The notes beneath the pieces were generated by a model, which saw nothing but the letters and a program-made list of their open reading frames with translations, was not told where the DNA came from and searched no databases. Below are positions 6,072-21,049 of a stretch of DNA of 35,348 bases, one piece after another. Position 1 is the stretch's first letter. Every line of letters starts with the position of its first letter. The translations under genes were made by a program, and so were the position numbers. The DNA is taken from NCBI GenBank assembly GCA_022360955.1, contig JAKSBV010000033.1:1-35348 (forward strand), given 5' to 3'. The stretch is from Bacillota bacterium. Lineage in GTDB: Bacteria > Bacillota > Clostridia > SK-Y3.

Positions 6072-7079
6072 TTATTCTTCCTCTTCCTGCTCCAAAGCAA
6101 TGTCGTCCAGCGACTTAAATTCATACCCTTTTTCCCGTGCATCTTTAATGATCCTCTCCAATGCTTCGGCGTTATCTTGTGATACCGCATGCAGTAATAA
6201 AATGGCTCCATTATGGATACCGCCCATCACATTCTTATACGCATAATCGGCACCTTTCTGCTTATCCGTTTCCCAATCCCTGTAAGCAAAACTCCAGAAT
6301 ACTGTTTGATAGCCTAAATTTTGTGTAATCGCAAGGGTTCTTTCACTGTATTCCCCTTTGGGGGGTCTTAAATATTTCATATTTTTCTGAAAGGCTTCGT
6401 AAAAGGCCCGCTCGACACCTAAGATTTCCTCTTCCAGCTTTTTTTCATCGAATACGCCGGGCATACTGGGATGTGTTACCGTATGATTGGCAACAATATG
6501 TCCTTCTTCTACCATCCTTTTAACCAAATCTTCATGATGCTTAAGATAGGAGCCTGTAATAAAAAAAGCGGCAGGCACCTTATTTTCTTTTAAAGTATCC
6601 AGTATCTTAGGCGTATATCCATTCTCATACCCTTCATCAAAGGTCAGATACAACACTTTTTGGTCCGTATGTTCAATAAACATCCCGTCATATTTTTTTA
6701 ACAATGCCTCTATATCCGCATTTGTGGTGGAAGGCTTATTGTCTTTTTCTCTTCTAAACCACCAGGCCAGACGGGTATTGTCCAAGTGAGCATATTCGCC
6801 CTGCAACTTTTTGGAATCCGGATCTACAGCCGGTTCCTCTTTTACCTCTTCTTTCTCCGGCAATACCTCATTAACGTCTTTGTCTTTATCGGTATCCTTA
6901 TCCTTCTCTTCTTCGGCCTCTCTTTCCCCCGGAACATCCGGCTGCCGCACCTCTATACCGGTACTATCGGTTTCTTCCAAACCTGTTTCCGCTATACCCC
7001 GGGCTTTGGTGCCGCAGGCCATCAAGTGCACTGCCAAAAATATAAGAAGGATACAGGCAAGGCTTCTTTTTGTCCTCAT
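6072..7079 (-). CDS. pdaA: PdaA-type polysaccharide deacetylase lipoprotein (spore cortex delta-lactam synthesis)
   Basis: PdaA enzymes deacetylate N-acetylmuramic acid as a step to muramic delta-lactam in spore cortex peptidoglycan. The product (335 residues) begins with a lipoprotein signal ending in LMAC (C22). A highly charged Glu/Lys/Asp-rich linker (about 45-90) follows, then a NodB-type domain (about 140-325). TFDEGYENG (146-154) supplies the metal-binding aspartate, and NHTVTH carries H199 and H203. The segment just before the domain (AWWF, KYDGMF) also resembles PdaA. I start at ATG 7079 after GTGGGG; the frame stays open to 7139, but the lipoprotein signal fits the shorter form. Lipoprotein anchoring and the long acidic linker differ from Bacillus PdaA. 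Confidence 0.87.
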   Translation of the reverse strand: MRTKRSLACILLIFLAVHLMACGTKARGIAETGLEETDSTGIEVRQPDVPGEREAEEEKDKDTDKDKDVNEVLPEKEEVKEEPAVDPDSKKLQGEYAHLDNTRLAWWFRREKDNKPSTTNADIEALLKKYDGMFIEHTDQKVLYLTFDEGYENGYTPKILDTLKENKVPAAFFITGSYLKHHEDLVKRMVEEGHIVANHTVTHPSMPGVFDEKKLEEEILGVERAFYEAFQKNMKYLRPPKGEYSERTLAITQNLGYQTVFWSFAYRDWETDKQKGADYAYKNVMGGIHNGAILLLHAVSQDNAEALERIIKDAREKGYEFKSLDDIALEQEEEE

Positions 7080-7162
7080 TGTTTCCCCACTTCCCTTTTT
7101 CTCTGGTGATATCCTTATTTTATTATAATCATGAGGCAAAGTACAGAGAAATTTTTACTAAT

Positions 7163-9497: not shown

Positions 9498-10466
9498 TTA
9501 TCCTGTTACAGAATTAGCCCACTTACCGCATTTATCGCCCCATATGGCAACGGTTTTTCCGTTTAATTCAACTTTAATCACTTCACAGCAGTTCGCACAA
9601 TCTTCACATTCGAAACTTCTCGGTTTAAATGCTAACTCAGCAGCCCCAAAACCTCTGAATTTCGTTTCTTCTCCTGACACTTCAATATACTCTTTTGCAA
9701 GAATGGCCGCACCTATTGCGCCCATTACATTATAATACTTGGGGATAATGATTTCACACCCAAGCTCCCTTTCAAAAGCGGCTTTGATCCCTTTATTGGC
9801 CGCCACGCCTCCCTGAAAAACATAAGGGGCCTTAAGGGCCTTTCCCCGGCCGAGGTTATTGATATAATTCCTCACCAATGCATCACACAAGCCTTTGATA
9901 ATTTCAGCTTTTGAAAACCCGTACTGCTGTTTTGCGATCATGTCCGATTCGGCAAAAACCGTACACCGCCCCGCAATTCGCACATCTTTCTTTGCAGTAA
10001 GGGCAAGACCCCCAAAATCCTGAATAGGAACACCAAGCCGTTCGGACTGATGATCCAAAAAGGAGCCTGTCCCCGCCGCACAAACAGTATTCATCGCAAA
10101 ATCAACCACCATTTTATCTTGGATAATGATAATCTTTGAATCCTGTCCTCCAATTTCCAAAATAGTATTGACCGTAGGATGAAAATTGACTGTTGCCGTC
10201 GCATGGGCCGTTATTTCATTTTTTACAATATCCGCCCCCACCAGAATACCTGCTAATTGTCTTCCGCTGCCCGTTGTACCTACACCCTTTACCGTATAAA
10301 AAATGCGCTTTAAATCTTCCTCCAATAATTTTAGTCCCTTTTTAACGGACTCCAACGGCTGACCGTTGGTGCGCGTATACTCTTTGAAAATAATATGGTC
10401 GTTCTGGTCCATCGCTACTACATTCGTACTGACCGATCCTACATCTATTCCGATATATATGTCCAT
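9498..10466 (-). CDS. BadF/BcrA/HgdC-type ATP-dependent activase (ASKHA fold, 4Fe-4S)
   Basis: These activases use ATP hydrolysis to inject a low-potential electron into a partner dehydratase or reductase. The 322-residue protein has the phosphate-binding motif GIDVGS (6-11), a second glycine motif GTTGSGR and EIGGQDSK. C129 in NTVCAAGTGS and C168 in AGRCTVF would hold the [4Fe-4S] cluster bridging a homodimer. Beyond the usual fold is a C-terminal extension with C-x2-C-x2-CC and a further cysteine (about 289-315), which may bind another metal centre. It is the third gene after the two dehydratase-like proteins, 91 bases downstream, with a GGGGGT ribosome binding site. Its substrate is unknown. 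Confidence 0.93.
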   Translation of the reverse strand: MDIYIGIDVGSVSTNVVAMDQNDHIIFKEYTRTNGQPLESVKKGLKLLEEDLKRIFYTVKGVGTTGSGRQLAGILVGADIVKNEITAHATATVNFHPTVNTILEIGGQDSKIIIIQDKMVVDFAMNTVCAAGTGSFLDHQSERLGVPIQDFGGLALTAKKDVRIAGRCTVFAESDMIAKQQYGFSKAEIIKGLCDALVRNYINNLGRGKALKAPYVFQGGVAANKGIKAAFERELGCEIIIPKYYNVMGAIGAAILAKEYIEVSGEETKFRGFGAAELAFKPRSFECEDCANCCEVIKVELNGKTVAIWGDKCGKWANSVTG

Positions 10467-10557
10467 CGTAATACCCCCATTTTGCTTATCAGTGATCGTC
10501 TGCGATAGTTAAACATACAGCATATGCTATAGTCTACCCACAAGCCTAACCCCTATA

Positions 10558-11709
10558 TTATCCGGCAAGCTCTTCCGGCACTTTGTCCGTATATTCCGGT
10601 TCTTTCACTTCTTTTTTCTGCACACTGCCTCCTCTCTTCTTATTTCGTACCAAATCTACAAACGCTTCTATTCTGGTTCGATTATTGGCCGTACCGTTTT
10701 GCTCATCTAAAGAAAGGGATAATATCGGCAGATCCAGCTCTTGTGAAATCGTAGGTATGGCACTTTGTGTGATTAGTTCGGGCAAACACCCAAAGGGCAT
10801 GAGGTGAACGACCGCATCAAAGCCCCTCTCCTTAAAATCCACCATCCATCCTATATTCTCCATATCATGTCCGCCCAAATTCATTTTTACAAATCGTTTG
10901 GCTTTATGAATGACTTGATGAGATTTGCTGCCCCCGATAAAATTCGGCTGAATATTGTGCTTTACCCAATCGGAGATATACTGTACACTTTCAACCTCAA
11001 TACCCATACTGTTCAATGTCTGTTCAATATCCATATTTGTCGAACTTTCCATGATCACATATATTTCTCCGACAATGCCTATTCTGATTTTCTCTTCCTC
11101 TTCTACTTTTTTCAAAGGCACTTCTTGCAGCATTTTACGTGCCTGCTCCGTCACTTTATCGATATCCTTTTGTGTCCAACATCCGTCATACATCCTTTGG
11201 ATTTCAAGCCAAACACGATTGAAATCCCCCCTTTTCTGCTCATAAGCCCTTAGCACTTTGATCTCCTTTTCGATCTCATCCATCCGGCATATGATCTGGT
11301 AGCTAAGCCACAGGTTCTTAAGTACTTTTATAATGGGGATCTTATTCTTTATTTTTTTTAAATTATCATAAAAAAGTCCGAAGTCTCGAAACATCGAATC
11401 AAAAACGATGAATTTAACATCGTGCCCCATACTTTTCAAGATTTTCTGGTGTATTTCTCCGTAAAGGCCCGCTCTGCAGGGTCCGTTCCCCCCCGAAGCA
11501 ACAATAACGTTCGCACCTGCTTGTACAGCCTCAATATATGTACCCATGATCACCTTAAAAGGAAAACATATGAATTCAGGGCTATATTTTACACCCAAAT
11601 CAATTGTTTTTTGTGTTGGTTTCTGAGGCATGACGACCTCGTGTCCCAACGTCTCAAATACTTTTTTATACCCGGTAACACATCCCATATAAGGAAAAGA
11701 AACTTTCAT
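10558..11709 (-). CDS. DUF2229/HgdB-like acyl-CoA dehydratase-related protein
   Basis: The 383-residue protein belongs to the group related to 2-hydroxyacyl-CoA dehydratase subunits (HgdB/DUF2229, often named CoA-enzyme-activase-related). Probable cluster-binding cysteines are C10 (MGCVTG), C48 (FICFPFK), C78 (GPCRAG) and a later one in PFGCLPE. The C-terminal tail is charged and variable. Its ATG overlaps the previous stop (ATGA), with AAGGAGAG upstream, so translation is coupled. Many Clostridia have these modules fused into one very long protein; here they are separate. Enzymatic activity is not established, and it may be a reductase rather than a dehydratase. Confidence 0.88.
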   Translation of the reverse strand: MKVSFPYMGCVTGYKKVFETLGHEVVMPQKPTQKTIDLGVKYSPEFICFPFKVIMGTYIEAVQAGANVIVASGGNGPCRAGLYGEIHQKILKSMGHDVKFIVFDSMFRDFGLFYDNLKKIKNKIPIIKVLKNLWLSYQIICRMDEIEKEIKVLRAYEQKRGDFNRVWLEIQRMYDGCWTQKDIDKVTEQARKMLQEVPLKKVEEEEKIRIGIVGEIYVIMESSTNMDIEQTLNSMGIEVESVQYISDWVKHNIQPNFIGGSKSHQVIHKAKRFVKMNLGGHDMENIGWMVDFKERGFDAVVHLMPFGCLPELITQSAIPTISQELDLPILSLSLDEQNGTANNRTRIEAFVDLVRNKKRGGSVQKKEVKEPEYTDKVPEELAG

Positions 11710-12707
11710 GCCAATTCTCTCCTTCGTTCACTGATTTTTTGCCTCTTTATCATATCAACAAATGCCTCAATTCTAGTCAATAGATGGCTTTCTCCCGTAT
11801 GCTCGTCTACCCGTATCGTCATAAAAGGCTTTTTAAATTTTTCACTGTCCAGCTCCATCATTTTTCCTACGATAGAATCAGGTCCACACCCAAAAGCAGT
11901 AATATGAATGAGTCCGTCAATTTGATGATTTTCCATTAGTTCCACGGCAGCACCATAGATTTTATCGGTAAAGGTCCAGTACAAATTTTTAGATTTTCGT
12001 TTAAATTTTTCATGAATGCGTTTTTCATCCAACATCTCAAAAGTAATCACTCTTACATTCATTCCATGTAATTTTTTAATAATGTCCATGCTCACAAAAG
12101 GGTCATACACGTTATAGACATACCCGAGCACGCCCAGTGTAATGTCATGGGTATGATGCGCTGTTCTTTCACTTCCCCTCATATCTTCCGAACACATCTT
12201 TTCCGCTTCTTCAATCGTAAAACCTTGCTTACAGCAGTCTCTAAAGTGCTGCCAAACCCTTTCTGCTGTCTTTAAAGCCTTTTTTAATTCTTTCGGGGTA
12301 ACCTGCAGGGCCTCACAAAGCGGTCTGTAATTGGTCCATTCGCAAGTACTTTCTTTTTTCCCTTGAATGTCCACCGTCAAAATCTTACTTTTCACGCCAT
12401 CAATCGTATAATCGGCCAATTCGGGCAATCCGATAAATTTAGGACAAAACCATTTACCCGATTCTACCCCGATAAACCGGGGAATAAAAATATAGTCCAC
12501 TTCTTTGGATAAAAGATTTATAATATGCCCGTTAAATATCTTGATCGGAAGACATATTTCCGGAACTGTCACCTTTACACCCTCTTGAACAAGCTGTTTG
12601 GAAGTAATATCCGAGATGACTATCTCTACACCCAGTTGTTCAAATAGACTTTTCCACAAGGGATAATAATAATGGTAAAGCAATGCACGAGGCAAACCTA
12701 TCCTCAC
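11706..12707 (-). CDS. 2-hydroxyacyl-CoA dehydratase-like (HgdB/DUF2229 family) protein
   Basis: The 333-residue product is homologous in layout to its downstream neighbour: RIGLPRALLYH at the N-terminus, cysteines in PEICLPIK and KWFCPKF, and a later AFGCGPDS. It is likely one half of a two-protein, Fe-S containing partner of the activase. I place the start at GTG 12707, because AGGAG lies eight bases upstream. The in-frame ATG at 12737 would put that ribosome binding site inside the gene. It is the first enzyme gene after the TetR regulator (92-base gap, no terminator seen) and overlaps the next gene by four bases. Confidence 0.88.
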   Translation of the reverse strand: MRIGLPRALLYHYYYPLWKSLFEQLGVEIVISDITSKQLVQEGVKVTVPEICLPIKIFNGHIINLLSKEVDYIFIPRFIGVESGKWFCPKFIGLPELADYTIDGVKSKILTVDIQGKKESTCEWTNYRPLCEALQVTPKELKKALKTAERVWQHFRDCCKQGFTIEEAEKMCSEDMRGSERTAHHTHDITLGVLGYVYNVYDPFVSMDIIKKLHGMNVRVITFEMLDEKRIHEKFKRKSKNLYWTFTDKIYGAAVELMENHQIDGLIHITAFGCGPDSIVGKMMELDSEKFKKPFMTIRVDEHTGESHLLTRIEAFVDMIKRQKISERRRELA

Positions 12708-12799
12708 AAAATCATCTCCTATACAGTTTTTTATCATATCACTATTTTACAACAATATTAAACCATTCACAACATTTTACTACTACTCCTCCACGCGGC

Positions 12800-13402
12800 C
12801 TATTTTTTTATATCTTGCCATAGCAGTCGGAAAATTTCCCTTTTTCTGTTTTCGATCAGTATCTCCACCTGCTCATCTGCAAACTCCAAAGCCGATGAAA
12901 TAACCGGCAAAGACATGAGGAAAAATAGGTCCAAGCTTAAAAGATTCAAGATAAACTCAAACGCATCTATCCTTCTTATTTCTCCTTTCTTGACTGCTTC
13001 ATTGATTTTCCGGGCCACCAGGCTCCCTACGACATCGAACATTCTTCTAAAGGATTCTTTTACTGCATCATGATCATTTCTTATTTCCCATAACAAGAAG
13101 TTTAAAATATTTCCTTTTTGGATAAAAAATTTGCAGTGGGTATCAATCAAAACCATTAACATTTCTTTAAAAGAATTTGTCTTTGTGATATCCAACAGAA
13201 AAAGATTCATTAATTCGGAAAATGCACTATCCAATGCTCTTTGAAACAATTGATCTTTGCTTCGAAAGTAATAATGAATTAATGCTTTATTCACTCCCGC
13301 TTCATCGGCAATTGCCTGCATACGCGCTCCGCCTCTGCCTTTTGCAACAAATTCCTTTTTAGCGGCTTTTAATATTTTCTCTTCTACTTTCGTATCGGTC
13401 AT
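12800..13402 (-). CDS. TetR-family transcriptional regulator
   Basis: The 200-residue protein has the N-terminal TetR helix-turn-helix (about 8-55, with GGARMQAIADEAGVNKALIHYYF) and a ligand-binding C-terminal half. I start at ATG 13402 because AGAGGT precedes it. The frame is open up to 13462, but that stretch lies in the operator and has no ribosome binding site. The promoter (13469-13497) and palindromic TTAACCA sites just downstream imply autorepression. The dehydratase/activase genes follow in the same direction with no intervening terminator, so they are probably under its control. The ligand is unknown; an acyl-CoA is one guess. Confidence 0.92.
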   Translation of the reverse strand: MTDTKVEEKILKAAKKEFVAKGRGGARMQAIADEAGVNKALIHYYFRSKDQLFQRALDSAFSELMNLFLLDITKTNSFKEMLMVLIDTHCKFFIQKGNILNFLLWEIRNDHDAVKESFRRMFDVVGSLVARKINEAVKKGEIRRIDAFEFILNLLSLDLFFLMSLPVISSALEFADEQVEILIENRKREIFRLLWQDIKK

Positions 13403-13429
13403 AAAATTACCTCTAAACTGTATATTTAC

Positions 13430-13460
13430 GTTAACCAGATGGATTAACCAAATGGTTAAC
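13430..13460 (-). promoter_or_regulatory. Predicted TetR operator with three half-sites
   Basis: TTAACCA (13444-13450) and TGGTTAA (13453-13459) form a 16-base palindrome with a two-base centre. A further TTAACCA at 13431-13437, 13 bases from the second half-site, makes an overlapping weaker palindrome. The site begins about ten bases past the -10 box, where a bound repressor would block transcription. Confidence 0.75.
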
Positions 13461-13468
13461 ACACCTAT

Positions 13469-14867: not shown

Positions 14868-16523
14868 CTATTCTTCCAAAGAAGAAAAATATTCTTCCAC
14901 CAGCATCTTCATGCCGGAAGGTATGGATGTCCTGCTCAGGCTGTTCATAGCCTCATATTTATACTGTCCCAATACCTCATGGTAAGGCCGCGACTCTCCT
15001 CTTGTTACGCTCCCGTTTTCTATCTGAATCTGCCGAACACTGCCGGCATTGTTATGAATACCGTTCACATTGGATATTTCACCATCGCCGCCTAATCTTT
15101 TAAAAGTATAAATTTCTTCGTAGTCTCCGACCTGCTTCCGGCCCGGTGATTTCTCCGCTCCTCCGGTGGACGGGCCTTGATTGCCGCTGTCATCACTTCC
15201 ATGGCTCGTACCACTGCCGGCGCCCTTACCACCGGCTCCGCTGCCGTTGCTGCCATCGTCCTGCCCGCTGCCGCTACCGCTGCCTGCCCCTGACCGGTTA
15301 CCTTTTTCCCCGTCACTGCCTTCGGTATCCGGCGAACCGTTACCACTTTGACCGGTTGAATCGTTCCCTTGCCCCGGCGAACCCAGCCGGCTCACCAAGG
15401 TCGGATTTTGTGTTTGCCCTGATCCGGCAGCGGAAAGATTGGCTTTGGATTGTTGAAGCGTCTGCGTCAACTGCTGTAAGGACTGACGAAGGGCAGGATC
15501 TTGGGCAAGGCGGCTTATGGCTGTATTTAATTGCGCCAGCCGGCCGGAGAATTGTCCGTCCTGCATCCCTTGGGCCAATTGCTGACATGCGGCAGCAAGC
15601 TGGGGATTCGCATCTATTTCCTTGGAAATATTTTTCAATTCCTCGGCCAGCTGTTGCCTTTCCCGGTGATTCATGGTTTTCAATGCTTTTTCAAGCTCTT
15701 CCAGCTGCTTTTTGATGGCATCGCTTTCTCCTGTTTCAAGTGCCTTTCCCAGTTCGCGTGTCGCCTCAAACTCTGACAACTGCCGGCCCAGCCGCGCCAA
15801 ATCCTTGTCTAAAGATTTTTGCCGGATCTCACCCAGCCTATGTTGGGCACGAGCTAATGCCTTTAGGGCTTCCGACTCGTTTTCAGACTTTCTCAGGTCC
15901 TTTGCCAACACATCCAATTGTCTATCCAACTCTTTCAAAACCTTCGGCGTTAACCGGCTGTTAGCAGCAAGCTTTTCCCGTTCCTTTTCAATACGCTTTA
16001 CCTCTCTTTTAATTTCTTGCTGTATCCTTTCTCTTTCTTTGGCAATTTCCCTATTTGGCGCAGGGACCATGAGCGTGATAATCATCACCAATGATAAAGC
16101 CAGGATTGCAAATATCTTTTTTCGATCCGCTCTTAAAGGATATGCACTTTTAACATCCAGGGCCTTCACGGCTTTGAGGGCATCAAACCGCTGTATGTTT
16201 GCAACGGGATTGTCCTCATCCTTATATTCAAAGGCTGTGACCAGCCTTTCTTTGAGTCCTAACGCATCTCCCTCCGCTAATACTTTTTGATCCTTTGGGA
16301 GCATGAACAATGCTGCAATGATGCTGAGTACAAAAATAACAATAAAGCTGACAAGCATTTTCTGCACCATAAATGTAACAGGCACAAGCAACGCCCCAAT
16401 GGCCATGAACAGGCCGACACCCAGCCCAACACACAGTCCCCAAAGCATACAATCAATAATGCTATTGGCAAACACGCGTAACCGCAGCGGCTTTAAGGCC
16501 CGATATAATTCCGAAATATGCAT
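14868..16523 (-). CDS. Membrane-anchored coiled-coil protein with Gly/Ser-rich linker, unknown function
   Basis: I do not recognise a named family. From the start at ATG 16523 (AAAGGGGGG upstream) the 551-residue protein has three hydrophobic segments (about 21-45, 52-76 and 135-153). A long charged and Gln-rich coiled-coil region (about 155-350) follows, then a low-complexity Gly/Ser/Asp linker (about 375-470) and a conserved-looking C-terminal domain. A longer frame to 16583 reads through an intergenic repeat and is unlikely. It sits between the ABC-2 permease and moxR, so it may link the membrane transporter to the ATPase. The linker is locally G+C-rich on the coding strand. Confidence 0.85.
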   Translation of the reverse strand: MHISELYRALKPLRLRVFANSIIDCMLWGLCVGLGVGLFMAIGALLVPVTFMVQKMLVSFIVIFVLSIIAALFMLPKDQKVLAEGDALGLKERLVTAFEYKDEDNPVANIQRFDALKAVKALDVKSAYPLRADRKKIFAILALSLVMIITLMVPAPNREIAKERERIQQEIKREVKRIEKEREKLAANSRLTPKVLKELDRQLDVLAKDLRKSENESEALKALARAQHRLGEIRQKSLDKDLARLGRQLSEFEATRELGKALETGESDAIKKQLEELEKALKTMNHRERQQLAEELKNISKEIDANPQLAAACQQLAQGMQDGQFSGRLAQLNTAISRLAQDPALRQSLQQLTQTLQQSKANLSAAGSGQTQNPTLVSRLGSPGQGNDSTGQSGNGSPDTEGSDGEKGNRSGAGSGSGSGQDDGSNGSGAGGKGAGSGTSHGSDDSGNQGPSTGGAEKSPGRKQVGDYEEIYTFKRLGGDGEISNVNGIHNNAGSVRQIQIENGSVTRGESRPYHEVLGQYKYEAMNSLSRTSIPSGMKMLVEEYFSSLEE

Positions 16524-16545
16524 ATTCAGCCCCCCCTTTTTTAGC

Positions 16546-16680
16546 GTACAGCTGACAGGATACAGGATACAATAAAACTTCAATATACCTCATTCACAGG
16601 GATATGGCATATATCTGCACACAATAGGGTTGGTGCACAAAGATTTTAACTTTACGCTGTATCCCATACCCTATATCCCG
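16546..16680. repeat. Intergenic repeat between permease and coiled-coil gene
   Basis: GTACAGCTGACAG (16546-16558) is the exact reverse complement of 6051-6063. It is followed by a duplicated CAGGATA unit. At 16655-16680 a related stretch (CGCTGTATCCC, then CCTATATCCC) lies in the opposite sense. Together these nearly fill the gap between two cluster genes. Confidence 0.55.
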
Positions 16681-17546: not shown

Positions 17547-18471
17547 TCGCCTCTTCCCCCTTTGTAATCCTCATAAATGCGTCTTCAAGATTCTTTTGGC
17601 GTTCTCCGAAATAGATTACTTTTACATTATTTTTAACCAATTCCGTTAAAATATCAGATACGGTGTGCCCGTCTCCTTCAATACCAAACTCTATATTGTC
17701 TATATTCCGGATAACCTCGCTTACGGCAGGCTGTTCTTTTAAAATTTTTATCGCTGTTTCCACCCCATCTATTACCTCAATCTTCAATAGCCTTTTATTA
17801 GAGGTCTGCAGCATAATATCCTGTACACTTCCGGTTACAACCATTTTTCCATTTTCAATAATGCCTATTGAGGTAGATAGTTCGGACAATTCGGGAAGAA
17901 TATGCGAACTGATCAATATGGTTTTTCCCATGCTTTGTAAGGCCTTCAATATTTCCTTCATCTCAATCCTGGCTCTGGGGTCCAGTCCTGACGCCGGTTC
18001 GTCTAAAATTAACACAGCAGGGTCATGAACCAGGCTGCGGGCAAGACATAATCGCTGCTTCATTCCTCTCGAAAGCGAATCCACATAGCTTTCTCTTTTT
18101 TGCGATAAATCAACCAATTCCAATAGATCGGCAATAATTTTTTTTCTTCCTGAAACGTCTATTCTATTTGCAGCACAATAAAAATCCATATATTCATCTA
18201 CTTTTAAGTTATCATAGACCCCAAAAAAATCGGGCATATATCCTACTTTTTCACGTACTTTTCTCCTATTCTTAGTGATGTCATCCCCTTCTATCAATAC
18301 CCTTCCGGCCGTTGGCTTCATTAAGCCGGCTATAATTTTTATTGTAGTTGTCTTGCCGACACCGTTAGGACCTACAAACCCAAAAATATGGCCCTTAGGG
18401 ATTTCAAAAGACAATTCATTGACTGCCGTAAACTTTCCATATTTTTTGACTAAATTTTCAATCATCAGCAC
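17536..18471 (-). CDS. ABC transporter ATP-binding protein
   Basis: The 311-residue ATPase shows Walker A GPNGVGKTT (34-42), ABC signature LSRGMKQRL, Walker B VLILDEPASGLDP and the switch histidine in ISSHIL. The extra 80-residue C-terminal domain is typical of ATPases paired with ABC-2 permeases. The GTG start overlaps the stop of the previous gene (TAGTG). An ATG two codons later is an alternative, but the coupling favours the GTG. Confidence 0.96.
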   Translation of the reverse strand: MLMIENLVKKYGKFTAVNELSFEIPKGHIFGFVGPNGVGKTTTIKIIAGLMKPTAGRVLIEGDDITKNRRKVREKVGYMPDFFGVYDNLKVDEYMDFYCAANRIDVSGRKKIIADLLELVDLSQKRESYVDSLSRGMKQRLCLARSLVHDPAVLILDEPASGLDPRARIEMKEILKALQSMGKTILISSHILPELSELSTSIGIIENGKMVVTGSVQDIMLQTSNKRLLKIEVIDGVETAIKILKEQPAVSEVIRNIDNIEFGIEGDGHTVSDILTELVKNNVKVIYFGERQKNLEDAFMRITKGEEANEA

Positions 18472-20960
18472 TATCGGACCACCCCTTCCAACTCAATATC
18501 CGGTGCCTCTATCATACCATGGTTTCCTCTATTTTTGCTATTTTGACTTCCACCAATATCAAACATCACTTTAATTTTATTATCCTTTGAGATATACTGT
18601 GCTGCAATATCACTGCCAACCATACAATAGGATGTTATTTCTTCCCACTGCTCGTTATGATAGTTATACAGCAATCTTTTGGTGTCCATCGAGAGTTTCG
18701 TAATTGGTGTATACCAATTAAGCGCAAACATACTCACAGAAATTTTACGGGGAATGTTAAATTGGAATATTACTCTTCCTCCACCATCAAATTCTACTCT
18801 CGCTTTCCTGGATGGATCAAAATTAGAACGCACATTCCCCTCCGTAGATTCCACTTTACCCTTCACAAAACCATACGGCAGTTGAATGCCTTCTCCTTTT
18901 TCAAGGTTTAGCGTCATCGGTATGACAATTAAATTCTGATAATACTTTTTGATTGGTTTCCCATTGGCATATACATTCAACTCTAAATCCGCATCGCTCC
19001 AGCCGTAAAGTACAGGCGGCATACTGTCACCTGACTTCACTGCATCGGAGTTATAGTAATATTCAAAAATAGATCTTCGCTGCTGTATAATCCTCCACGG
19101 CTCATCTCCTTTAGCAGCCCGTTGATTTCGGTCAAATTCGAAAATATCATCTAATAAAGCGTGATAATTATTCATATTACTATTCACCATTAACTTCTCG
19201 CTAAATTCTTTTGTTTCCGCTATTTCTAAATCTCCAATTTTCACAAAGCTGTTTCCGATAATAATAAAGGCATCCTCAAGCTTAAAAACGGTGTTGTTGG
19301 TAATATGACCGTTCATAATATTATCTTTTACTGTAATACTGTTACCGAATCTCTCCGGAAAATCGACTTTTTTGTGCATGGTAAAATGACTAAAGTCCCA
19401 TAACCCTTTATCATAAAATTCAACGGCCGGCTGTTCTCCCAGCGTAAATTTTGAAATGATTTCCTGCTTCTCTCGTTCATCGTAATTTCTATAATGTCTA
19501 TCCGAATAAAGATTAGCGGTGAAATCAACGCCTACATCTTTAGACGTTGTAATTTTCAATGTGCCTCTTCTTGCATTAAATAACCCCGTATGCGCTGTTA
19601 CCGCCACACTTTTACTATCATTTTTAAACTCAATAATTGAAACAATGTTGCCAACAGCATTTGAAACCCTCGTTCCAAAACCTATGATATAAATCCCCAA
19701 ACTAAAAACCAAGACAATAACCGGAATAGAAACCCATGACCATTCTCTTTTGTCCTTTTTCTTCAGTATTAAATAGTTTACCGGTCCCACAATAAGGATG
19801 AACAAGCCCATCAAGATCATTAACAAAGTAATAGAAGTTGTTTTTGCAAAAGGCATATTTCTTAATGCACTATACATAGAATGATAAGAATGCCCATATC
19901 CTCTAAATTTCACAAATTCCTCGTCTTCCATTCTTTCTCCTATTAATGTCGTGATAATATTTTTACAGACAAGCCGGTTTCCGCCTTCCCAGCTCGAAAA
20001 CGGTTCCAAACCCATATCAAATGCCAGATAGGCAATGGCCCCTTTTCCAAAACGTTTAGAGGCTATTAACGGTATATCCGGATATGTATCGTCCGCTAAC
20101 AGGATTTGTGCATCTGCTATTACAAATGCTGCAGCTCGCATGGATGGTGTTTCCGGAAAACCTCCTCTTTCAGTATATACCTCAAAAGCGGTACCGCTAT
20201 TCAATGTTCTCTCTTCTAATTGATTTGCGATTTTGAAAGGTTCCGGTAATCCGTTAAGTACCTTTTTATAATTCGCTCCTGTCCCCAACATCAATAGCCC
20301 ACCATTTTCAACCCAATGGACAAGCCTTTGCCTTTGCTCGTTATCCAGCATAGAAGTGTCAAAATTGTTAATCACCAAAACGTTAAAGTTCTGCAATACT
20401 TTATCTTCTACCGGAAAACTTTTTTCACTGAGTTCAACAACTTCACTTTGAGAAGAGGCGCGTTCATTGGTCAAATTTAGCCCTGCCAGATACCTAAGAC
20501 CGGACATATCATCGGCTAAAACGCCAACAAGCAAAGTATTCGGATGTAAGGATTTTTTGAAATAGTATTTTTGCTCTTTTACAATTGCTTTGCCTTGAAC
20601 AATTCTTATATCAATCGATGCACGATTTCGATTTACAGGCACACTAATGGCAAACTGCTTTTTTCCTCCACTCGGCAGATTGATAGGCAATGCATAAATG
20701 GATGATTTGGCGTCAGCCTCCATATGGTTTCCCACAACCTGAACTTCACCGTCAAAATGATCTCCACTGTTTTTTAATGTGATGGTAACCGGTGTCCATG
20801 TACCAATTTTGTGTATTCCGTCAAATCCGCCTTCTATATTAATAATTTCTATTCCACCCTCGGCACTTACGGCATAAGGATTTACTGCTGACATCATAAG
20901 AAGTATGAATGGCAATAATAAAAAAATGTATTTTTTATGCTTTATAGCAGCTGATAACAC
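18471..20960 (-). CDS. Large exported membrane protein with GATase1-like domain, MoxR/ABC cluster
   Basis: This 829-residue protein is unnamed. From GTG 20960 (GGGGGG six bases upstream) it has a signal peptide ending near AVSA (about 33) and a beta-rich domain resembling a carrier or adhesion fold (about 35-140). A region at about 165-325 resembles a class I glutamine amidotransferase fold without a clear catalytic triad. Two transmembrane helices follow (about 375-399 and 409-429), then a long C-terminal region (430-829) of beta-rich character. It is the first gene of the cluster and overlaps the ATPase gene. An extended frame to 21023 lacks a ribosome binding site. No separate promoter was found in the short upstream gap. 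Confidence 0.9.
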   Translation of the reverse strand: MLSAAIKHKKYIFLLLPFILLMMSAVNPYAVSAEGGIEIINIEGGFDGIHKIGTWTPVTITLKNSGDHFDGEVQVVGNHMEADAKSSIYALPINLPSGGKKQFAISVPVNRNRASIDIRIVQGKAIVKEQKYYFKKSLHPNTLLVGVLADDMSGLRYLAGLNLTNERASSQSEVVELSEKSFPVEDKVLQNFNVLVINNFDTSMLDNEQRQRLVHWVENGGLLMLGTGANYKKVLNGLPEPFKIANQLEERTLNSGTAFEVYTERGGFPETPSMRAAAFVIADAQILLADDTYPDIPLIASKRFGKGAIAYLAFDMGLEPFSSWEGGNRLVCKNIITTLIGERMEDEEFVKFRGYGHSYHSMYSALRNMPFAKTTSITLLMILMGLFILIVGPVNYLILKKKDKREWSWVSIPVIVLVFSLGIYIIGFGTRVSNAVGNIVSIIEFKNDSKSVAVTAHTGLFNARRGTLKITTSKDVGVDFTANLYSDRHYRNYDEREKQEIISKFTLGEQPAVEFYDKGLWDFSHFTMHKKVDFPERFGNSITVKDNIMNGHITNNTVFKLEDAFIIIGNSFVKIGDLEIAETKEFSEKLMVNSNMNNYHALLDDIFEFDRNQRAAKGDEPWRIIQQRRSIFEYYYNSDAVKSGDSMPPVLYGWSDADLELNVYANGKPIKKYYQNLIVIPMTLNLEKGEGIQLPYGFVKGKVESTEGNVRSNFDPSRKARVEFDGGGRVIFQFNIPRKISVSMFALNWYTPITKLSMDTKRLLYNYHNEQWEEITSYCMVGSDIAAQYISKDNKIKVMFDIGGSQNSKNRGNHGMIEAPDIELEGVVR

Positions 20961-21021
20961 AACAATCCCCCCTAAGGTTTTTGGACGCAAATAGGGTGTA
21001 AAAAGTTCCCCGGAACGGCAC

Positions 21022-21049
21022 AAAATCGAAAGGGGTCCCTTTCGATTTT
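21022..21049 (-). terminator. Terminator overlapping the stop of the lytic transglycosylase gene
   Basis: Arms AAAATCGAAAGGG (21022-21034) and CCCTTTCGATTTT (21037-21049) are perfect. They would form a 12-pair stem with a small loop, followed on the minus strand by a short U-rich end. The TAA stop lies in the stem. A second small palindrome GTTCCCCGGAAC (21005-21016) follows. Confidence 0.75.

Follow-up and report, generated by a model that had tools for sequence, protein, structure and literature searches.

A three-gene locus in a Bacillota bacterium encodes a probable split relative of the PlsA-PlsR/Ger reductases

The stretch of DNA analysed here (35,348 nt, referred to as a whole as the window) originates from a Bacillota bacterium (SK-Y3; assembly GCA_022360955.1, contig JAKSBV010000033.1) and carries on its minus strand three consecutive open reading frames (ORFs), designated A, B and C in their reading order. 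A (11706-12707) encodes a DUF2229/HgdB-fold reductase subunit, B (10558-11709) an HgdB-fold reductase subunit and C (9498-10466) a BcrAD/HgdC-type activase with a tail of four conserved cysteines. A and B share an ATGA overlap, and B and C are separated by 91 bp. The ORF of A opens at an ATG at 12737, from which its residues are numbered below (minus 10 for the GTG start), and the GTG at 12707 is the likelier start because it is preceded by AGGAG and matches the consensus start of the family. It also agrees with the end coordinate given in an earlier reading made from the letters alone, and all three ORFs were found at the positions named there. A Pfam search returned DUF2229 (1.2e-49) and a weak HGD-D match at the C-terminus for A, pieces of DUF2229 (1.2e-13) and HGD-D (1.5e-9) for B, and BcrAD_BadFG (2.3e-46) for C, which also scored 188.6 bits against TIGR00241, above the curated cut-off of 125.4.

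AlphaFold models of A and B, with mean pLDDT (predicted local distance difference test) values of 89.1 and 87.8, both found the double-cubane cluster protein (DCCP) as the best structural match, with a Z score of 15.3, a root-mean-square deviation of 4.4 and 279 aligned residues for A and of 16.9, 4.1 and 291 for B. Chains of DCCP, benzoyl-CoA reductase (BCR) and 2-hydroxyacyl-CoA dehydratase (HAD) were tied within 1 Z for both models, and the first rows outside this superfamily appeared at Z 9.5 (A) and 9.4 (B). The predicted folds of A and B are thus those of HAD, BCR and DCCP subunits, and the fold search by itself does not separate the three on these models. Searching the PDB with phmmer gave weak matches of A to DCCP (0.0022) and matches of B at chance level only.

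According to the available parts of the reports on PlsA and Ger (glycerol ester reductase), PlsA comprises the domains Act1, Act2, Red1 and Red2, and Clostridium perfringens carries a plsA-plsR operon (PMC12838417, PMC8788747, PMC13274423, PMC11150832), and fused proteins of this layout are plasmalogen synthase or Ger, as tested with E. coli as a foreign expression host (PMC12838417, PMC11150832). Domain mapping matched the three genes of the window to three domains of one such large fused protein, in which a DUF2229 domain is also present, so that the term 'split', used in an earlier reading made from the letters alone (the sequence-only reading), applies in a stronger sense than it had there. 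For comparison, 10 loci of the group of the window trio (split I), 24 loci of a second split group (split II) and 25 fused/PlsA loci were collected from 60 related genomes. Five of the 25 fused/PlsA loci consist of a protein of 972-989 residues followed by a PlsR-like protein of 424-460 residues, which we read as the C. perfringens layout and which represent the plsA-plsR operon in this comparison. Profiles were built for fused Red1, fused Red2/PlsR and canonical HGD-D proteins, the last from 22 stand-ins (21 from genomes of the class and E. coli YjiM), the BzdNO and HgdAB sequences themselves not being in the tree. A of the window scored 175.9 bits against the Red1 profile and 22.2 against canonical HGD-D, and B scored 109.5 bits against Red2/PlsR, 68.3 against Red1 and 35.5 against canonical HGD-D. 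The same assignment was obtained for all 33 split A proteins (best to Red1, with a mean of 176 bits vs 22 for Red2 and 24 for canonical HGD-D) and all 35 split B proteins (best to Red2/PlsR, with a mean of 91 bits vs 45 for Red1 and 27 for canonical HGD-D). A is therefore orthologous to the Red1 domain of PlsA and B to PlsR or the Red2 domain. In the activase tree, C is nearest to Act2.

Phylogenetic analysis was used as well (supports are SH-aLRT, the Shimodaira-Hasegawa-like approximate likelihood-ratio test, from short searches, and long branches were flagged by the program). In a tree of 88 proteins including the 22 HGD-D proteins, A and B together were separated from HGD-D at a support of 100, all A proteins grouped at 93 and all B proteins at 90. 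The sequence-only reading had named a position inside a characterised dehydratase clade as its refutation; A and B were found outside, and its proposal of an ATP-driven reductase-type system rather than a classical hydroxyacyl-CoA dehydratase is borne out by profiles and tree alike. Neither 'all split' nor 'all fused' proteins formed a group in this tree, suggesting that the A/B pair most likely predates the parting of the split and fused forms. A larger tree of A and B (118 rows, without HGD-D) recovered split B at 99, fused A at 99, fused B at 96 and the split-I clade of the window at 100 for both A and B, and the activase tree recovered split C as one group at 96, with split I at 100.

Between split and classical Pls-like proteins, 26 columns of A and 25 of B are conserved and identical. 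With PlsA-PlsR, present as plsA-plsR in C. perfringens and as one fused PlsA in Enterococcus, Lactococcus and Bifidobacterium, the trio shares its domain set and Cys sets, namely an Act domain with the four-Cys tail, the Red1 triad and the Red2 triad, together with the BCR/HAD fold family. In PlsA, two activase domains are joined to Red1 and, in most cases, to Red2 as well, two C-type regions being present in 25 of the 25 fused/PlsA proteins compared, whereas in the trio the single activase and both reductase subunits are free proteins; the conserved C-terminal motifs differ as well. Because of this single free activase in place of two fused activation domains, the trio is, as judged from the sequences, a split sister form of the PlsA family and not PlsA itself. 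Ger of Thermotoga maritima and Desulfatibacillum alkenivorans, which could be set against the trio by description only, is PlsA-like with two activation domains, was tested through expression in E. coli (PMC11150832, PMC13274423), is fused with a size of about 150-160 kDa and makes alkyl ethers. Taken together, we assign the trio to the PlsA-PlsR/Ger (plasmalogen synthase/glycerol ester reductase) family with high confidence.

The conserved cysteines follow the same division. All on the minus strand, the triad of A (11886-12554) consists of C62 (12552-12554), C98 (12444-12446) and C284 (11886-11888), kept in 33/33 split A proteins, and that of B (10786-11568) of C48 (11566-11568), C78 (11476-11478) and C308 (10786-10788), kept in 40/40 rows, five of which are PlsR-like. 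The triad of Red1 is likewise kept in 69/69 fused proteins. C284 of A aligns with one cysteine of DCCP and with one of the HAD beta subunit. Together with the same-strand ORFs and their ATGA overlap, these triads agree with the two coupled HgdB-like proteins with conserved cysteines described by the sequence-only reading. Two A rows (269 and 278 residues) and the two halves of one B were dropped from the counts as too short or interrupted; the latter lies in two overlapping ORFs (152 and 234 residues) at L069:10031-11190, owing to an assembly error or a frameshift. In C, the presumed ligands of the cluster common to the activase dimer, C129 and C168 (9963-10082, minus strand), are kept in 31/31 split activases and align with cysteines of HgdC and HadI, so that the gene had also been correctly described as an activase with both cluster cysteines.

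The tail of C (9528-9608, minus strand) reads C287-x2-C290-x2-C293-C294. The C-x2-C-x2-CC pattern noted earlier is thus present, but the invariant set, kept in 31/31 split activases, is C287, C290, C294 and C313, and C293 lies outside it. PlsA-type proteins carry the same four-Cys motif where Act2 ends, immediately ahead of Red1 (63/69 fused/PlsA). The tail is absent from all 15 complete activases encoded next to canonical HGD-D genes, among them YjiL; locus ends truncated three others. Two of the first 25 fused/PlsA systems had no tail, and the same two had no Red2 triad. A search with this odd Red2 domain reached six of 291 genomes (the own genome and G004 included), and the four new proteins were also without tail and triad; forty further fused proteins, which are the top of the DUF2229 matches listed and biased to classical PlsA, have both. 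Altogether, tail and Red2 triad occur together in 63 of the 69 fused/PlsA systems, are both missing in six, and never occur one alone. The six tail-less proteins have identical substitutions (Y, E, E), and the two of them placed in trees, the other four not being in the tree, group at 99-100. They probably form one lineage, and the joint absence may therefore reflect one event and not six. One of them, of the own genome (L012:1063-5145, contig C8), is a fused PlsA/Ger-like protein with a Red2 without Cys triad and an Act2 without tail, and it is followed by a UbiE/CMAS-like methyltransferase gene.

Canonical enzymes with clusters in both subunits have no tail, and the tail is hence not generally needed for a second cluster. 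A speculative proposal, which we consider rather unlikely as a whole, is that the tail binds a metal cluster feeding electrons to the cluster of Red2 or B. Two electron designs would then exist, one with two clusters and a tail (split trios and classical PlsA) and one with a single cluster and no tail (the six tail-less fused proteins), of which the latter may correspond to Ger, the maker of alkyl ethers; the split trio would be the simplest form, with one activase homodimer serving both reductase subunits.

The own genome of the trio, assembled in 522 contigs and about 97% complete, so that absences are no proof, contains BcrAD domains (E<=0.001) in three systems, all of which include a DUF2229 partner. 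These are the window trio, another split trio on contig C147 and the fused 1360-residue protein of contig C8. No HGD-D match was found in this genome at E<=1e-25, and four weaker ones lie within the two split trios. The second trio (L011:617-3648, contig C147) belongs to split II and has, like its relatives, the same A-B-C order, cysteines and tail as the window trio, but it is a separate paralogue with 40% identity in A; in the relatives it lies near a DUF1292 gene, a Fer4 aldo/keto reductase gene and a ThiF-like gene. Across 291 genomes of the class, A had a match at E<=1e-30 in 76, 22 of which carry a split-I copy (at least 45% identity), and DUF2229 occurred in 222 (E<=1e-12). In ten of the 22 split-I genomes, the matches listed include a single DUF2229 match, by inference the trio's own, so that the trio should stand alone in the DUF2229 family there. 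A, B and C are adjacent in nine of the ten split-I loci besides the window, the tenth stopping at a contig end. Split-II loci show this adjacency in 21 of 24 cases (a contig end cuts one locus). At L074:9721-11780 and L076:419-2631, both of one genus, a split-II A-B pair without an adjoining activase lies about 20 kb from a split-I trio, whose activase these pairs may share. One fused gene (L094:2388-6457) is found in two frames (392 and 969 residues), reflecting an assembly error or a frameshift.

Activases of the BcrAD type in the BCR/HAD family are dimers with one shared [4Fe-4S] cluster; they hydrolyse ATP and hand low-potential electrons to a reductase pair. For the trio we infer cluster types, stoichiometry and an electron route along these lines. 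A homodimer of C, taking the place of the Act1-Act2 pair, would hold one [4Fe-4S] cluster via C129 and C168, receive an electron from ferredoxin or flavodoxin and drive it to a very low potential by ATP hydrolysis. C would then dock on the A-B heterodimer, of which two three-Cys [4Fe-4S] clusters would relay electrons to the carbonyl of a bound ester, and the four-Cys tail of C would probably hold a further metal centre for the B side. The resulting radical would be reduced again and dehydrated, converting a glycerolipid acyl ester to an alkenyl or alkyl ether. We therefore hold, with moderate confidence, that the trio is a three-gene, single-activase form of the PlsA-PlsR/Ger ATP-dependent radical reductases acting on a lipid ester to make an ether lipid, the lipid substrate being deduced from family membership alone.

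Several observations weigh against this assignment, and most of them bear on the substrate. The split A clade reached a support of 81 with two rows outside in the 118-row tree and 57 in the profile-test tree, and the grouping of split C with the Act2 domains of fused proteins is supported at only 80. At the C-terminal TRxEAF positions (A 321 and 324-326; B 345 and 348-350), split and classical Pls proteins each have conserved residues that differ from those of the other group, and the substrate sites of the two may for this reason differ. No lipid gene recurs beside the trio among the neighbours that were scanned with Pfam, which are a part of the total and differ between genera, and three family systems in one genome suggest divided roles. 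It is accordingly possible, if less probable in our judgement than a lipid ester substrate, that the split lineages have kept the family membership and the ATP-driven electron delivery and reduce a non-lipid carbonyl, a thioester or a cofactor, ester reduction on lipids having arisen only in the fused lineage. The deep parting of split and fused lineages, the missing lipid neighbours, the three systems of the own genome and the TRxEAF motif of split A and B, which is similar to the one found C-terminally in DCCP and HAD, would all fit this explanation. However, T, E, A and F also stand at those positions of A in the six tail-less fused proteins, which nest with the other fused proteins, so that the motif alone is no substrate mark. 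The two activities known from experiments in the DUF2229 family, those of PlsA and Ger, are directed at glycerolipid esters according to the available parts of the reports (PMC11150832, PMC12838417). Given the activities of this nearest characterised family, the class of the substrate, called unknown in the sequence-only reading, is no blank.

The other candidates lie within the same superfamily. A double-cubane [8Fe-9S] small-molecule reductase like DCCP, which the sequence-only reading had considered possible, would share the fold and the ATP-driven electron transfer by a BcrAD-type activase, and DCCP ranks first among the structural matches of A and of B, though tied with BCR and HAD. Six cysteines are needed per double-cubane subunit, reported in the available part of the source as Cys36/73/100/263/293/327 of BzdN (PMC11971306), whereas A and B have three invariant cysteines each, other Cys columns of the window proteins being kept in at most 6/11 split-I A and 7/10 split-I B proteins. 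Moreover, DCCP is a homodimer, and A and B are distinct paralogues. The Cys count therefore disfavours the double cubane, which we regard as very improbable. The Cys pattern of A and B resembles instead the three-Cys aqua-[4Fe-4S] site of BzdO (Cys95/128/380), for which the same coordination is described in HadB (PMC11971306). The common fold, the common activase family and HGD-D Pfam matches above cut-off would suit a canonical 2-hydroxyacyl-CoA dehydratase or BCR of the HgdABC/HadIBC or class I BCR type. These enzymes act on CoA esters and form a separate clade, both profiles and tree setting A and B apart from the 22 HGD-D proteins, and their activases have no tail (15/15). A Pfam scan of the 20 larger ORFs of the window (smaller ones were not scanned) found no CoA-ester pathway gene, nor any CoA-transferase, dehydrogenase or amino-acid fermentation gene, as had been noted from the letters for the adjacent genes. 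A canonical enzyme is thus disfavoured, chiefly by profiles and tree, and is in our view highly unlikely.

Attempts to deduce the function of the trio from its surroundings were not successful. Split-I neighbours vary (BioY, a TPP (thiamine pyrophosphate) enzyme, a potassium channel, a spermidine-synthase-like protein, TetR), and a functional assignment from neighbours was rejected as no class recurs beside split I beyond close relatives in the part that was Pfam-scanned; the gene after the trio codes for a CmpB-like membrane protein, both in the window and at four loci from the same family. Directly upstream of the trio lies a TetR-family regulator gene (12800-13462, minus strand; TetR_N 7.8e-15). 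A phmmer search with it found nothing similar in the 10 other split-I loci, and a dedicated TetR regulator of the trio was rejected because the association is not conserved. Near it, only imperfect inverted repeats were found. TetR genes also adjoin a fused gene at L054 (7740-8357) and precede plsA-plsR-like genes at L057 (2681-3361), a recurrence that may be due to chance, and the TetR gene EF1326 precedes the pls gene of E. faecalis in the available part of PMC9702350. Promoter-like sites numbered 24 vs 14.2 (standard deviation 3.6) in shuffled sequences but are scattered across the whole stretch, and terminator-like sites showed no excess (5 vs 3.7). Elsewhere in the window, two proteins of 571 and 850 residues without Pfam match (14868-16583 and 18471-21023) lie near a MoxR ATPase and an ABC (ATP-binding cassette) transporter, and genes for Spo0A (326-1132) and the spore-cortex de-N-acetylase PdaA (6072-7139) suggest that the host is probably a spore former.

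No description of a three-gene, single-activase form was found in the open-licence literature searched, largely as titles and abstract openings, and no two of COG3580, COG3581 and COG1924 were co-mentioned there. In its available part, a 2026 report states that the screened Bacillota genomes hold additional PlsA homologs without activation domain, the role of which is called unclear (PMC13274423). Split trios would be a likely explanation for these homologs because their reductase subunits are separate genes and the activase is usually the next gene. The genes for anaerobic ether-lipid synthesis were identified only recently, and the fused enzymes (about 150 kDa) ended up in inclusion bodies when expressed in E. 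coli, as described in the available part of PMC11150832; with its separable subunits, the trio could prove more convenient than these for testing ATP-driven ester reduction. Telling family members apart by sequence is currently impossible according to the 2026 report (PMC13274423), and the pairing of the activase tail with the Red2 triad provides a testable sequence mark that may help to distinguish them.

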